64,000 bases of DNA from a virus. The stretch lies in IMG/VR virus record IMGVR_UViG_3300005529_000002, positions 1 through 64,000 of that record; one strand, given 5' to 3'. The position numbers were made by a program, and so were the translations under genes. Shown piece after piece: positions 19,724 to 25,151 of this stretch; position 1 is the stretch's first letter, and the number at the start of each line of letters is the position of its first letter. The notes beneath the pieces were generated by a model. That model had not been told where the DNA came from, made no database searches, and was given only the letters and a program-made list of their open reading frames with translations.

Positions 19724-19920
19724 GCGGCACTCTCCTGCCGCGGCCAGTTCGCGGAGGCCGCGTCCCACCACGTCGTCCACCGGTGGCCCCGGCCGCAGTC
19801 GTAGTCGGCGCGGAGGCTTGATGCGCAGGCCGGGTCGGGCGCGACCGCGTGCGGGAGGCTGGCCGGGAAGTCGCCGATGCGGCAGCGAGGGCAGCAGTCG
19901 GCCAGGGCGGAGGCGGTCAT
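19720..19920 (-). CDS. Small zinc-binding protein (66 aa)
   Basis: CCPRCRIGDF and CGRGHRWTTWWD give a possible two-part zinc site (CxxC plus C and H). ATG overlaps the DnaB-like helicase stop (ATGA). Confidence 0.6.
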   Translation of the reverse strand: MTASALADCCPRCRIGDFPASLPHAVAPDPACASSLRADYDCGRGHRWTTWWDAASANWPRQESAA

Positions 19921-21275
19921 GCGACCTGCGCGGGGTAGGCCAGCTCGTCCTGCTCCGGGCGGTACATCTCGCCGCACATCGCATAATGGCCGCGGAACGC
20001 GAGCGTCGCCGTCCCGTTCGGCCCTGACCTGTTCTTGGCCACGATGAGGTCGATCTCGCCCGCGCGGGCTGTCTCCTGCTCGTAGGCGTCCTCGCGGTAG
20101 AGCAGGATCACGACATCAGAGTCCTGCTCGACCGAACCCGAGTCGCGGAGGTCGGCGGGCAGCGGCCGGTGGTCGGTGCGCATCTCGGGGCCGCGGTTGA
20201 GCTGGCTGCCGACGAGGATCGGCACCTTGAATTCCTTGGCCAGCAGCTTGAGCCCGCGGGAGATCTCCGATACTTCCCGTTCCCGGTTCGCCGCCTTGCC
20301 GGTCTTGCCCATCAGCCCGAGGTAGTCGACGACGACCAGTTCGGCGGGGTATCCGGCGCGGCTCATGGCGCGCAGGTCCGAGCGGATGGTCTGCACGCTC
20401 ATGTACGGGTCGTCGTCGATCATCAGGCTCCCCGCAGCCGTCAGCCGCGGGTACGCTCCGGCGATCCGGTCCCAGTCGCGGTCATCGAGCAGCCGGGCGC
20501 GGATTTTCCGCAGGTCGACGGTCGCCTCGTAGGCGAGGATGCGCTCGATGCACTCCGCGGCGGACATCTCCAGCGTGCACACCAGGACGGGCCGGCTGAA
20601 CGTCACCCCGATGCGGACTGCGATATTCAGCATCACCACGCTCTTGCCCATGCCGGGCCTCCCGCCGACTGTGATCATCTCGCCGGGGCGGAAGCCAGGC
20701 ACGAGATCGTCGAGGGCCGACCAGCCGGACGTGACCGCCCGGACCTGGTCCGGGCCTTTCTGGAGCGAGTCCAGGACCGGGCCGACCAGGTCCGCGACGC
20801 TCCGGGCACCTCCGGGGGCCACGGTCCCGGCCGCCCCGTCGAGGATCTTGTACGCGGCGTCCACCAGCTCGGCCAGGCCGGCGCCGCCCGTGAGAGCGGC
20901 CTGGCGGATGCGGGCGCCGGCCTCGGCGAGCTTCCACCTGACCGCGCACTCCCGGACACGCTCCGCATACCATCCGGCGCTGCCCGCGCTCGGGACGCAG
21001 GCCACGAGGGTATGGAGGTACTCGGCACGGCCGGTTTTCAGCAGCGTCCCGCGCTGCTCCAACTCGGCCTTGACGATGACCGGGTCAGCGGGCTCGCCGC
21101 GGTCGGCAATCGCCTTGAGGGCCGCGAAAATCTCCTGGTGGGCGGGCCGGGAGAAGTAATCCGGCTCGAGGATTTCCAGGCAGGATGCCAGCGCCCCCGC
21201 GGACAGCATCATCGACCCGAGGGCCGCCTGCTCAGCCGTGATGTCGCGCGGGATGCCAAGCTCGTCGTCGCTCAC
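19917..21275 (-). CDS. dnaB: DnaB-like replicative helicase
   Basis: A 452-residue replicative DNA helicase. The N-terminal helical domain (AEQAALGSMMLSAGALASCL, about residues 14-33) matches the DnaB fold. The RecA-like domain has Walker A GRPGMGKS, Walker B ELVVVDYLGLM, the sensor GSQLNRGPE and an arginine-finger region KNRSGPNGTATLAF. It sits downstream of the initiator, the DnaC-like loader and a second helicase, completing a phage replication module. GTG start overlaps the upstream stop. Confidence 0.93.
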   Translation of the reverse strand: MSDDELGIPRDITAEQAALGSMMLSAGALASCLEILEPDYFSRPAHQEIFAALKAIADRGEPADPVIVKAELEQRGTLLKTGRAEYLHTLVACVPSAGSAGWYAERVRECAVRWKLAEAGARIRQAALTGGAGLAELVDAAYKILDGAAGTVAPGGARSVADLVGPVLDSLQKGPDQVRAVTSGWSALDDLVPGFRPGEMITVGGRPGMGKSVVMLNIAVRIGVTFSRPVLVCTLEMSAAECIERILAYEATVDLRKIRARLLDDRDWDRIAGAYPRLTAAGSLMIDDDPYMSVQTIRSDLRAMSRAGYPAELVVVDYLGLMGKTGKAANREREVSEISRGLKLLAKEFKVPILVGSQLNRGPEMRTDHRPLPADLRDSGSVEQDSDVVILLYREDAYEQETARAGEIDLIVAKNRSGPNGTATLAFRGHYAMCGEMYRPEQDELAYPAQVA

Positions 21276-22918
21276 CGCGATGGCCTCCGTAGCTTGCGGA
21301 TGTTCTTCGCGGCGTAGTGCGCGGTCATCATGTCCGAGGCGGCACCGCGGGTGATCCCGGCGAGCTTGCCCGCGTATCCCATCCGCTCCAGGGCGGACAC
21401 CTGGGACTCGCTCGGCGGCCGGTTCCGCCAGGCGGCGTCTGAGCGGGACAGGACGCCGCCCTGAGCCCTGGCGATCTCCTCGCCGACGCCGCGTGCCCAG
21501 TCGAGCGCCAGCGGCTTGCCCGATTCCCGGTACAGCGCCTGGCCTTTAGCCGACCGCCACACATCCCAGTTCCCGGCACCGTCATCGGCGGGTACCAGGA
21601 TCATCACCTGGTCGGGTCCGGCAGGCAGCACCCACGCGCCCTCGACCTCAAGCCATCGCAGCTCGCTGCGCCGCAGCAGCTCGATCTGCCGCGTGCGCGC
21701 CGCGGCGACGGCCATCTTCTGCTTATCGAACGCCGCCTGCTCCTCGGCGGCGTCGAGAAGCGACTTTCCCTTCTTGACCGAGCCGGGCGGCATCCCGGCG
21801 AGGTCGGCGATGGTGGCGAGGCCCGGTTCGGCGGACCCGGCCAGGTCCAGGATGAGCGCGCCGTCCTTGGTGTACGGCTTGCCGTCCAGCGTGCCGATGA
21901 AGGGCCGCAGGACCCGGCCGGCCATCTGGATGAACAGCGGCGCCGATTTGGTGGGCCGCAGCATCAGCGCGCAGGACACGGCCGGCTCGTCCCAGCCTTC
22001 GGTGAGGACCGCGCAGTTCGCGACGACGCGGGTCTCGCCGCGGTGCAGCCGGGCCAGGACGGCGCGGCGCTCGTCGCCCGGCATCTTCCCGTCGACCGCT
22101 TCGGCGGGGAGGCCCTTGGCGCTGAACGCCTTCGCCAGTGCGTGCGCGGTCGCGATGGTCGGCGTGAACGCGACGGCGAGACGCCCGTCCGCGTACTGCC
22201 GGTACGCCTTCACCGCAGCGTTGAGCGCGTCGGAGCGCTCCAGTTCGGCGCCGATCGAGGAATCGGTGTAGTCACCCGCGCGGACCTGGACGTTGCCGAG
22301 GTTGAAGTCCGTGCCGATCTGCATCGCGCGGACATCGCAGAGGTAGCCTTCGGCGATCATCTGGACGATGCCGCGCTGGTAGGTGATCTCCTGCCAGACC
22401 GCGCCGAGGCCGACCTTGTCGCTCCGTCCGGCTGTCGCCGTGAACCCGGCCGTCAGCGGGCCGGATGCGCCCATGCAGCCCAGGCGGTCCAGGACATCCA
22501 TGTAGGTGCTGGCGACCGCGTGATGGGCCTCGTCCACGATGACCGTCGAGAAGACGCCGAGCCGTTCCACCCGGCCGGGACGGCACAGTGTCTGGACGGA
22601 CGCGACGATGACCGGGGCGTCACAGTCATCCTGCTTCGCCTTCACGATGCCGATGTCCAGTGACCCGCTGACTTGCGCGAGCTTGGCCGCGGCCTGCTGG
22701 ATCAGCTCATCGCGGTGCGCCAGGATCAGCGCCCGGCCGCCGCGGCGGGTCACCAGGTGCGCGAATACCACCGTCTTGCCACCGCCTGTAGGAAGGACGA
22801 CGAGCTGGCGGTCCACGCCCCGCGCATAGGCAGCGGCGATGGCGTCAAGCGCCTGGACCTGGTACTGGCGCGGCCGGAGCGCGGTGCCGGGCATCTCGAG
22901 TTCGAGCGTCGTCGTCAT
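21272..22918 (-). CDS. DEAD/DEAH-box helicase (UvsW/type III restriction-like)
   Basis: A 548-residue superfamily 2 helicase. Motif I LPTGGGKT, motif II DEAHH, motif III TAGFTATAGRSD, motif VI QMAGRVLRP. The C-terminal 150 residues are less familiar and end in helices (SQVSALERMGYAGKLAG). Similar phage enzymes remodel forks and joint molecules in recombination-dependent replication. ATG at 22918 overlaps the loader gene by four bases (ATGA). Confidence 0.88.
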   Translation of the reverse strand: MTTTLELEMPGTALRPRQYQVQALDAIAAAYARGVDRQLVVLPTGGGKTVVFAHLVTRRGGRALILAHRDELIQQAAAKLAQVSGSLDIGIVKAKQDDCDAPVIVASVQTLCRPGRVERLGVFSTVIVDEAHHAVASTYMDVLDRLGCMGASGPLTAGFTATAGRSDKVGLGAVWQEITYQRGIVQMIAEGYLCDVRAMQIGTDFNLGNVQVRAGDYTDSSIGAELERSDALNAAVKAYRQYADGRLAVAFTPTIATAHALAKAFSAKGLPAEAVDGKMPGDERRAVLARLHRGETRVVANCAVLTEGWDEPAVSCALMLRPTKSAPLFIQMAGRVLRPFIGTLDGKPYTKDGALILDLAGSAEPGLATIADLAGMPPGSVKKGKSLLDAAEEQAAFDKQKMAVAAARTRQIELLRRSELRWLEVEGAWVLPAGPDQVMILVPADDGAGNWDVWRSAKGQALYRESGKPLALDWARGVGEEIARAQGGVLSRSDAAWRNRPPSESQVSALERMGYAGKLAGITRGAASDMMTAHYAAKNIRKLRRPSR

Positions 22919-23490
22919 CCTTCCGCCCTCCGCCTGTCGGGTCCGCGGAGGGTGACTTGCCGGCACATCTCGGCGAGGCGGGACGCGACACGGGCACCGA
23001 GGGTGCCGCGGAGTTCGGCTGCGGGGACGTTGGAGGTGAACAGGCCGGGCAGCATCGCCTCGTAGCGGTCGTTGACGAGCCGGTAGAGGATTTCCTCGGT
23101 CCATTCGCTGCCTTTTGCCGCGCCGAGGTCGTCGAGCAGCAGCAGCGGGACCGCGGAAATCTTGCGGTACTCGGCTTCGGCGTCGGTGCCTTCACGCGGG
23201 CGGAGGCTGGCGAACAGGCCGGGCGCGGTGTCCGCGTGCCAGGCGACCGTGGCACCTTCCGCGGCGAGGCTGCGGATAGCGCCGAACGCCTGGTAGGTCT
23301 TGCCGGTCCCGGTCGGCCCGAGGATCAGCAGCGACGAGGAGGACGGCCCGAACTCCTTGCACCATGCGGCGATGCCGGGATGGGTCGCGGTGGCGTGGCG
23401 GAACCGGGGCGGGATGCGCCGGTCGGTCATCTCAATGGCCCGCTGAAGGAATCCTTCGCGGGTCGAGACATCGTACGGCGGGGAGGTCAT
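22915..23490 (-). CDS. DnaC-like helicase loader ATPase
   Basis: A 191-residue AAA+ ATPase of the DnaC/IstB type. Walker A GPTGTGKT, Walker B PLLLLDDLGAAK, sensor FTSNVPAAEL, and an arginine-rich end (ARVASRLAEMCRQVTLRG). In phages this loads the replicative helicase at the origin. It lies directly after the initiator gene (TGATG overlap), matching the initiator-loader order of lambda. Confidence 0.88.
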   Translation of the reverse strand: MTSPPYDVSTREGFLQRAIEMTDRRIPPRFRHATATHPGIAAWCKEFGPSSSSLLILGPTGTGKTYQAFGAIRSLAAEGATVAWHADTAPGLFASLRPREGTDAEAEYRKISAVPLLLLDDLGAAKGSEWTEEILYRLVNDRYEAMLPGLFTSNVPAAELRGTLGARVASRLAEMCRQVTLRGPDRRRAEG

Positions 23491-24314
23491 CAGAGTTTCT
23501 CCTCGTAAGCCGAATCCGGGGGGTTCTGGTATGGCTGGTGACCGGGTTTGACGGCACCGGGCGCGGCGTCTTTGCGTACCTGGACGGCGAGGTCGTTCCA
23601 TTCGCCGGTCCCCATGCGGTAGGCGGACTTGATCAGCTCCTCGATGCCGAATCCGTCAGCGAGGAGGGCGCGGGCCTGCTTGCCGACCCTGGCCCGCAGG
23701 CTTGACGGGGGCGGGGGCTGGCCGGAGCTGACCGCTCCGTCGACGTAGGAGGCGACGACGTCGCCGACGTGCTTGGCGCGTTCAGGGTCCTCGGCTTGGC
23801 CGGAGCGACGCGGCTTGTCCGCGTCCGGCGTAGCCGGAACTCCTGTCTCCTGTCTCCTGTCTCCAACCGCCCGCGCGCGAGGATCGCGCTCGTCTGCGGA
23901 ATCGTTCCGCGCTCGTTCCGCGATTGAGTGCGGAATCGTTCCGCGATTGAGTGCGGAATCGTTCCGCGACTGTTCTTCGCTCGATGACGGCGACGGCAGG
24001 ATGCTCGCCTGGGGCTTGGAGATGCGCTGATGCTTGGACCAGTTGGGGAAGTAGGCGTATTCAACGCCGTTGACCTGGTAGATCACCGTAAATCCCGTCC
24101 TGGCGATCTCGTCGCGCCACTGGCGGACGGTGCCTGGCTTGAGATCATCGGCGGGGAAGACGTCACCGGCAAGCTTCGCGACAGACGCGAACAGGCGTCC
24201 CTCGTCGTCGGCATGGGAGATCATGCCGAGTGCCAGCAGGCGAGCGTCCCTGGACAGGGAAATGAACTTCTCGTCGGTCCATATCGACGGCTTGATGCTC
24301 CGGATCCGCGCCAT
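23490..24314 (-). CDS. Phage replication initiator protein
   Basis: A 274-residue protein beginning MARIRSIKPSIWTDEKF, the signature start of actinophage and Gram-positive phage initiators, followed by a winged-helix-like part (LSRDARLLALGMISHADDEG). Residues about 116-140 are encoded by three repeats of a 15-base palindrome, candidate origin iterons. The C-terminal part (ELIKSAYRMGTGEWND) probably contacts the loader. ATG at 24314 is preferred; a GTG at 24464 would add 50 low-complexity residues. Confidence 0.85.
   Translation of the reverse strand: MARIRSIKPSIWTDEKFISLSRDARLLALGMISHADDEGRLFASVAKLAGDVFPADDLKPGTVRQWRDEIARTGFTVIYQVNGVEYAYFPNWSKHQRISKPQASILPSPSSSEEQSRNDSALNRGTIPHSIAERARNDSADERDPRARAVGDRRQETGVPATPDADKPRRSGQAEDPERAKHVGDVVASYVDGAVSSGQPPPPSSLRARVGKQARALLADGFGIEELIKSAYRMGTGEWNDLAVQVRKDAAPGAVKPGHQPYQNPPDSAYEEKL
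23896..23967. other. Candidate replication origin: iterons inside the initiator gene
   Basis: Three identical 15-base copies of GCGGAATCGTTCCGC, each an inverted repeat around TCG, at 23896-23910, 23930-23944 and 23953-23967. The last two are part of a 23-base direct repeat unit. They fall between the N- and C-terminal domains of the initiator gene, as in lambda O. Origin function is inferred. Confidence 0.55.
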
Positions 24315-24492
24315 AACGCACCCCGCCGCGCCCTTGAAACGAGCATCCGGCCGCTGCGTATTCGGCCGTGCATGCCCGCCTGCTCGCCGTTGACGCCGTT
24401 GCGGGGACGCCGGGGGACGGGCACTGGGCGCCTTCTTCCTGTGCTCGGTGCGGATGTTGTTCACGTGCTGTACCTGCTAAGTTCCGGACAGT

Positions 24493-24532
24493 CCCGGCGC
24501 GCTCATCGGCAACTGCCGATGAGCGCGCCGGG
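24493..24532 (-). terminator. Long palindrome, probable terminator
   Basis: Two perfect 19-base arms, CCCGGCGCGCTCATCGGCA and its complement (24514-24532), separated by AC. It lies 13 bases beyond the stop of the (G-X)n protein on the minus strand, in a non-coding gap before the initiator gene. No clear U-tract. Confidence 0.6.
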
Positions 24533-24545
24533 GGAAGGGCTGATG

Positions 24546-25151
24546 TCAGGCGACTTCTTCGACGATGAGGCGACGGAGTGCGCCTGCCTTGCTGCCGTCC
24601 GTCCGGGTCTCGCCGAGGAGGCCGACGACCCACCAGCGCTCGCCATCCCATTGCGACGGCACCCATGAGGCGTGGAGGGCGTGCTGGGAGCACAGCCGCA
24701 GCGGGCCGGGGACTTCCTGGATGAGGCCGGGGCGGGCTGGATCGGCCATGGTGCGTCCGCCGTTAGCGGACTGGCCGTCCGTACCGGACCGCCACCATCC
24801 CAGGGAGACGGTCTCACCGGCCTCGACGGCTGCGGCCACCAGAGGGTGCGACAGGTAGGCCGACAAGGCGCCGTCGCCGTCGCCGTAGCCGTAGCCGTAG
24901 CCGTAGCCGGAGCCGGAGCCGGAGCCGTCGCCGGAGCCGGAGCCGGAGCCGGAGCCGTAGCCGTAGCCGTAGCCGTAGCCGTAGCCGTAGCCGTCGCCGG
25001 AGCCGGAGCCGTCGCCGTCGCCGGAGCCGGAGCCGGAGCCGGAGCCGTCGCCGTCGCCGTCGCCGTAGCCGGAGCCGTCGCCGGAGCCGGAGCCGGAGCC
25101 GGAGCCGTCGCCGTCGCCGTCGCCGGTTAGGACCAGGGCCTGCCCTGCCAC
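24546..25151 (-). CDS. Protein with (Gly-X)n repeat and a DUF7666-like C-terminus
   Basis: A 201-residue protein. About residues 10-93 are some 42 dipeptides G-D, G-S or G-Y; the rest is globular (YLSHPLVAAAVEAGETVSLGW, LCSQHALHASWVPSQWDGERWWVVGLLGE, LRRLIVEEV). The C-terminal pattern is like phage proteins of the DUF7666 kind, where tandem repeats are also usual. GTG start overlaps the upstream gene by 25 bases. Function unknown. Confidence 0.6.
   Translation of the reverse strand: MAGQALVLTGDGDGDGSGSGSGSGDGSGYGDGDGDGSGSGSGSGDGDGSGSGDGYGYGYGYGYGYGSGSGSGSGDGSGSGSGYGYGYGYGDGDGALSAYLSHPLVAAAVEAGETVSLGWWRSGTDGQSANGGRTMADPARPGLIQEVPGPLRLCSQHALHASWVPSQWDGERWWVVGLLGETRTDGSKAGALRRLIVEEVA
24871..25126. 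repeat. Six-base tandem repeat (CCGTCG/CCGGAG/CCGTAG)
   Basis: About 42 consecutive hexamers coding G-D, G-S and G-Y on the minus strand, arranged in blocks. A simple-sequence array of this length should be unstable by slippage, but in-frame changes would be tolerated. Confidence 0.8.

Follow-up and report, generated by a model that had tools for sequence, protein, structure and literature searches.

The segment at 23835-23967 of a viral genome, inside the phage's own initiator gene, is a candidate replication origin made up of iterons and a GGA-repeat tract. We analyzed a 64,000-nucleotide stretch (the window, positions 1 to 64,000 of the 99,932-base IMG/VR virus record IMGVR_UViG_3300005529_000002) and, on sequence grounds, consider it likely that this segment functions as an origin with the GGA repeat as its opening or loading element. 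The iterons and the GGA tract 3' of them are conserved as DNA and lie in the part of the gene that codes for a disordered protein linker. Matching pairs of signals recur in related viruses of very different bacteria, so the combination may well represent a type of replication origin that is common but has received little description. Iteron origins located inside initiator genes are already known; the new aspect is the recurrent GGA tract that replaces the A+T-rich region, across phyla. The features of the region are:

19917..21275, minus strand: DnaB-like replicative helicase (PF03796, 3.4e-78; phrog_19, 6.7e-98)
21272..22918, minus strand: SF2 (ResIII/DEAD) helicase (phrog_16, 1.9e-83)
22915..23490, minus strand: DnaC-like helicase loader (phrog_50, 1e-31; IstB, 2.8e-8)
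23490..24314, minus strand: initiator gene, 274 aa (phrog_2149, 7e-30, and phrog_1408, 5e-29; replication initiation protein)
23835..23885, minus strand: 51-bp block with the GGA tract, invariant in an alignment of the window with loci L004, L005, L006 and L007
23840..23864, minus strand: GGA-repeat (purine-strand) tract, GGAGACA x3.6 on the coding strand (TRF)
23896..23910, minus strand: iteron 3 (gene nt 405-419)
23913..23921, minus strand: half-iteron GCGGAACGA (gene nt 394-402)
23930..23944, minus strand: iteron 2 (gene nt 371-385; 23-bp tandem unit)
23953..23967, minus strand: iteron 1, GCGGAACGATTCCGC (gene nt 348-362)

The initiator gene encodes two ordered domains joined by a disordered linker. 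Matches to the phrog_2149 and phrog_1408 profiles span the N-domain and the linker. An AlphaFold2 model shows a winged-helix N-domain (aa 1-110, pLDDT about 98), a disordered linker (about 112-170) and a helical C-domain (about 177-250), with pLDDT below 50 at aa 114-138, 140-144 and 153-158; the low-confidence part, aa 114-158, is the one encoded by the iterons and the tract. Fold matches in the PDB are weak and led by 4pt7 and 4pql (E 0.006-0.017), whose annotations name an initiator and a DNA-binding domain at the N-terminus, and a PDB sequence search with the initiator gave no match. Replisome organizers are among the closest viral models. Downstream follow the loader, whose ATG overlaps the initiator stop codon (TGATG), the SF2 helicase and DnaB. 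A sequence-only reading of this DNA had the initiator followed by loader and helicase genes; both are present, with the SF2 helicase intervening between loader and DnaB. Of the genome matches to the initiator, the nearest comes from an assembly of Frankiales, with 64% in the N-domain, and an actinobacterial host for the contig is therefore a guess.

The iterons are a repeat of DNA and not of peptide. GCGGAATCGTTCCGC occurs at three exact sites, 23896-23910, 23930-23944 and 23953-23967, with no further exact copies in the whole record, and GCGGAANNNTTCCGC with at most one mismatch is found four times in the window compared to 0.34 expected, a count reached in 0/100 shuffles. Read on the coding strand, the unit GCGGAACGATTCCGC is an interrupted palindrome with 6-bp arms and a 3-bp asymmetric core. 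Coding-strand starts at 348, 371, 394 (the half-site) and 405 give spacings of 23, 23 and 11. A spacing of 23 is not divisible by 3 and places successive copies in different reading frames (RNDSA, GTIPHS), indicating a repeat at the DNA level. The claim of three identical 15-base palindromes in the linker region is borne out by the exact copies and by the predicted disorder of the linker that the array encodes, while the description itself needs amending in that the palindrome is interrupted, the gene lies on the minus strand and a half-site is present in addition.

A strand-asymmetric purine tract adjoins the iterons. This second element, GGAGACA x3.6, overlooked in the sequence-only reading, is separated from the iterons by 31 nt on their 3' side (coding strand), and the invariant 51-bp block around it holds GGAGACAGGAGACAGGAGACAGGAG. 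No A+T-rich unwinding region is found beside the iterons, the AT content being 20-47% in 30-nt steps over 23701-24330 and 30% at the tract. The GGAGACA repeat alone was rejected as an initiator-specific word. Phage genes unrelated to the initiator (L119-L123, L125-L127) contain exact 25-mers of it too, so only its position beside the iterons is informative.

This arrangement resembles the origin of phage lambda in plan. Lambda iterons bind O dimers and the neighbouring region has nearly all purines on one strand (PMC5043065); in the lambda sequence, palindromic iterons followed by a purine-strand tract are found inside O. In both phages, palindromic iterons spaced 20-24 bp apart occupy the stretch of the initiator gene that codes for the linker, a tract with its purines almost all on one strand follows 3' on the coding strand and the loader gene comes next (PMC5043065). 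The window tract is, however, GGA-rich with about 30% AT, compared to 79% AT in lambda, and lambda uses P with host DnaB whereas the window phage encodes a DnaC-type loader and its own DnaB. The lambda-like origin proposed earlier thus holds for the plan (initiator domains, linker iterons, loader and DnaB downstream) and fails for the protein, for which profile comparisons show no homology to lambda O. Using Pfam and NCBIfam, the window initiator matches neither Phage_rep_O PF04492 nor phage_O_Nterm TIGR01610 and gives only a sub-threshold HTH_36 hit, while lambda O, as positive control, matches both models; hhalign likewise finds no relation to lambda O (probability 0.1). A set of lambda O sequences drawn from viral contigs proved 99-100% identical throughout, too uniform for a comparison. 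In nine O-type (Phage_rep_O) genes inspected, the linker is free of GGA tracts. P22 is similar in having repeats followed by an A-rich ACAAAAGACAA tract within its initiator gene.

Further counterparts are phages of the same initiator family (phrog_2149/phrog_1408), namely mycobacteriophages Butters, Phrann and Beakin, Gordonia OneUp and Streptomyces Alderaan. In their linker DNA, iterons are accompanied by a tract of GGAACAGG or GGAAGG, although the iteron sequences differ from those of the window. The OneUp initiator resembles O-like phrogs in its C-terminal part. The records examined for these phages carry no origin annotation. The short repeated motif beside the initiator boxes of bacterial oriC, the DnaA-trio (also cited in PMC5043065), possibly read as a single strand, is an analogy only, as sequence and initiator differ. 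Searches of an open-access library yielded lambda reviews and a paper on a RepA-type mycobacteriophage origin (PMC7157519) and no description of the GGA tract, which is weak evidence as most subscription journals lie outside that library.

Close relatives conserve the element at the DNA level. Four viral contigs (L004-L007, with L005 identical to L006 over the initiator gene) code for initiators of 71-75% identity. Each of them retains two complete iterons along with the half-site GCGGAAC and a degenerate fourth site (GCGGAATGACTCCGC, GCGGAACGGCTCCGC, corresponding to iteron 3) at unchanged spacing. At conserved residues within the element the codon is identical in 35/37, 32/34 and 35/37 cases, compared to 103/165, 96/156 and 129/181 in the rest of the gene (94-95% vs 62-71%). 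The spacers after the palindromes (ACTCAATC, ACTCAGTC, ACCCAGTC) vary among genomes and match for both copies within each, as expected if the arrays evolve in concert. L004 (199-236), L005 (6059-6096) and L006 also carry a second two-iteron array, absent from the window, which precedes the initiator ATG by about 90-130 nt. It is identical to the in-gene array of its own genome and is not accompanied by a GGA tract. The upstream and in-gene arrays appear to be a case of concerted evolution, and the upstream copy is possibly an operator or second binding site.

Distant homologues typically retain the two-part layout with diverged iterons. A profile of the N-domain without the linker was used to find homologues, and the best-scoring 160 further loci, a non-random sample, come from viral contigs and prophages of Actinobacteria, Proteobacteria, Bacteroidota, Thermodesulfobacteria, Planctomycetes and others. 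Conservation of the iterons in homologous genes, on which the earlier reading had staked its origin, is seen in two forms: identical or near-identical copies in close relatives and differently sequenced iterons at the same place in the majority of distant homologues. In this majority, iterons of varied sequence (including TCGACGA, CTCACTGA, TTCGCGAG, TTCAGATGAAATC and GGAACGATTCC) lie just after the N-domain and are followed by a GGA-rich repeat (including GGAAGGGAAGGG, GGAACAGGGGAACAG, GGATCTAGGATC and GGAGACAGGAGACA). Among 75 non-redundant homologues, the linker coding strand reaches at least 4 GGA per 35 nt in 62, at a median position of 75 nt after the N-domain, and 13 remain below 4 GGA; the same threshold is reached by 8/75 antisense strands, 7/75 N-domains and 4.6% of 2,800 other windows. 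A plain purine-fraction test was weaker than the GGA count because some tracts hold pyrimidines (GGATCTA). The tract is present in nine of ten named phages (of Mycobacterium, Gordonia, Streptomyces, Rhodococcus, Klebsiella and Marinomonas), the Bordetella phage being without it. Immediately 5' of the tract, repeats account for 35.6 nt, compared to 14.2 nt in dinucleotide shuffles, 15.0 nt in synonymous shuffles and 19.8 nt in a downstream control; taken locus by locus against dinucleotide shuffles, 31/62 homologues miss p<=0.05. Similarity of the iteron region correlates with N-domain identity at rho 0.25 (C-terminal DNA 0.07, N-domain DNA 0.20), a weak correlation that is confounded by phylogeny. 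As an exception, the linker of L249 (from about 3321) has CTACGAC heptad repeats and no GGA tract after TCTCGCGA-type iterons.

A constraint acting on the peptide, by which a requirement for charged Gly/Arg/Glu/Lys segments in the linker would give rise to the DNA repeats as a side effect, is very improbable. Part of the GGA enrichment does survive synonymous shuffling (mean GGA count 3.56 vs 5.46 observed). Shuffled sequences attain the observed count in 17.7% of cases on average, so that the enrichment is due in part to the Gly/Glu/Arg/Lys composition of the protein. However, GGA is found in all three frames with spacings of 5 (218), 6 (53) and 7 (44), so that repeats with a period of 5-7 nt cross every frame, and codon identity in the element is far above that in the rest of the gene. 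This explanation is largely contradicted by six homologues (L124, L128, L129, L130, L131 and L209) in which the tract lies past the stop codon, indicating selection as DNA. In L128 the frame closes before the tract, yet the window-type GCGGAACGATTCCGC iteron is kept. L124 (11739-12230) is a distant initiator with other iterons and the same GTTGGAGACAGGAGACAGGAGACAGGAGT tract, untranslated beyond the stop.

Two further explanations accept the signal as DNA and assign it another role. The palindromes could be an operator for transcription of the replication operon, bound by the initiator or a repressor, with replication starting elsewhere. The upstream array of L004, L005 and L006 sits without a GGA tract where an autoregulatory operator would be expected, but such an array is missing in the window and is unsupported as a family-wide autoregulatory site (5/51 loci, about chance), and it is the in-gene array that is constant and followed by the GGA tract. 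We therefore regard an operator as a doubtful reading. Alternatively, the GGA tract could form a G-quadruplex or R-loop on the coding strand, and the initiator would then not open it as an asymmetric duplex; this would change the mechanism and leave the origin in place. Four runs of G2+ with loops of 1-7 nt are found in 60/62 tracts compared to 9.3% of control windows. This pattern is, however, a trivial consequence of GGA repeats, most tracts have G2 runs only, and lambda and P22 share the plan with A-rich tracts lacking G runs, making this mechanism unlikely.

Under the preferred reading of an in-gene origin, the steps of initiation can be proposed by analogy with lambda (PMC5043065). The winged-helix N-domain would bind the palindromes as dimers and wrap or bend the DNA, straining the adjacent purine/pyrimidine-asymmetric tract. 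The strained tract would open and one of its strands would be kept single-stranded. Recruited by the C-domain, the DnaC-like loader would place DnaB on this strand. With its period of mostly 5-7 nt, the GGA repeat would do the work of the A+T-rich region that opens in lambda ori. For the family as a whole, we see about an even chance that this large group of initiators, found across many bacterial phyla, has a single type of two-part origin inside the gene. Its sequence-specific element for opening or helicase loading would be the GGA repeat (5-7 nt period), and not an A+T-rich stretch, and would be conserved even after divergence of iterons and protein or where the reading frame stops short of it. 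Such a signal would pinpoint the origin in many phages, both uncultured and cultured, common mycobacteriophages among them, and would make origins predictable from sequence. It also provides a natural series in which iterons vary while the neighbouring GGA repeat stays, which could reveal the needs of an opening or loading element that is not A+T-rich.

The cumulative GC skew of the whole record, a check proposed with the sequence-only reading, has its maximum at 25,103, within about 1.2 kb of the iterons, and is weakly suggestive, being confounded by gene orientation and by a repeat at 24870-25125. This repeat comprises about 43 copies of a 6-nt unit (GCCGTA/GCCGTC/GCCGGA) within an ORF at 24546-25151 (minus strand) whose product is a Gly-Asp/Gly-Ser/Gly-Tyr repeat protein. 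A perfect 19-bp inverted repeat with a 2-nt loop is located at 24493-24532, between this ORF and the initiator gene.
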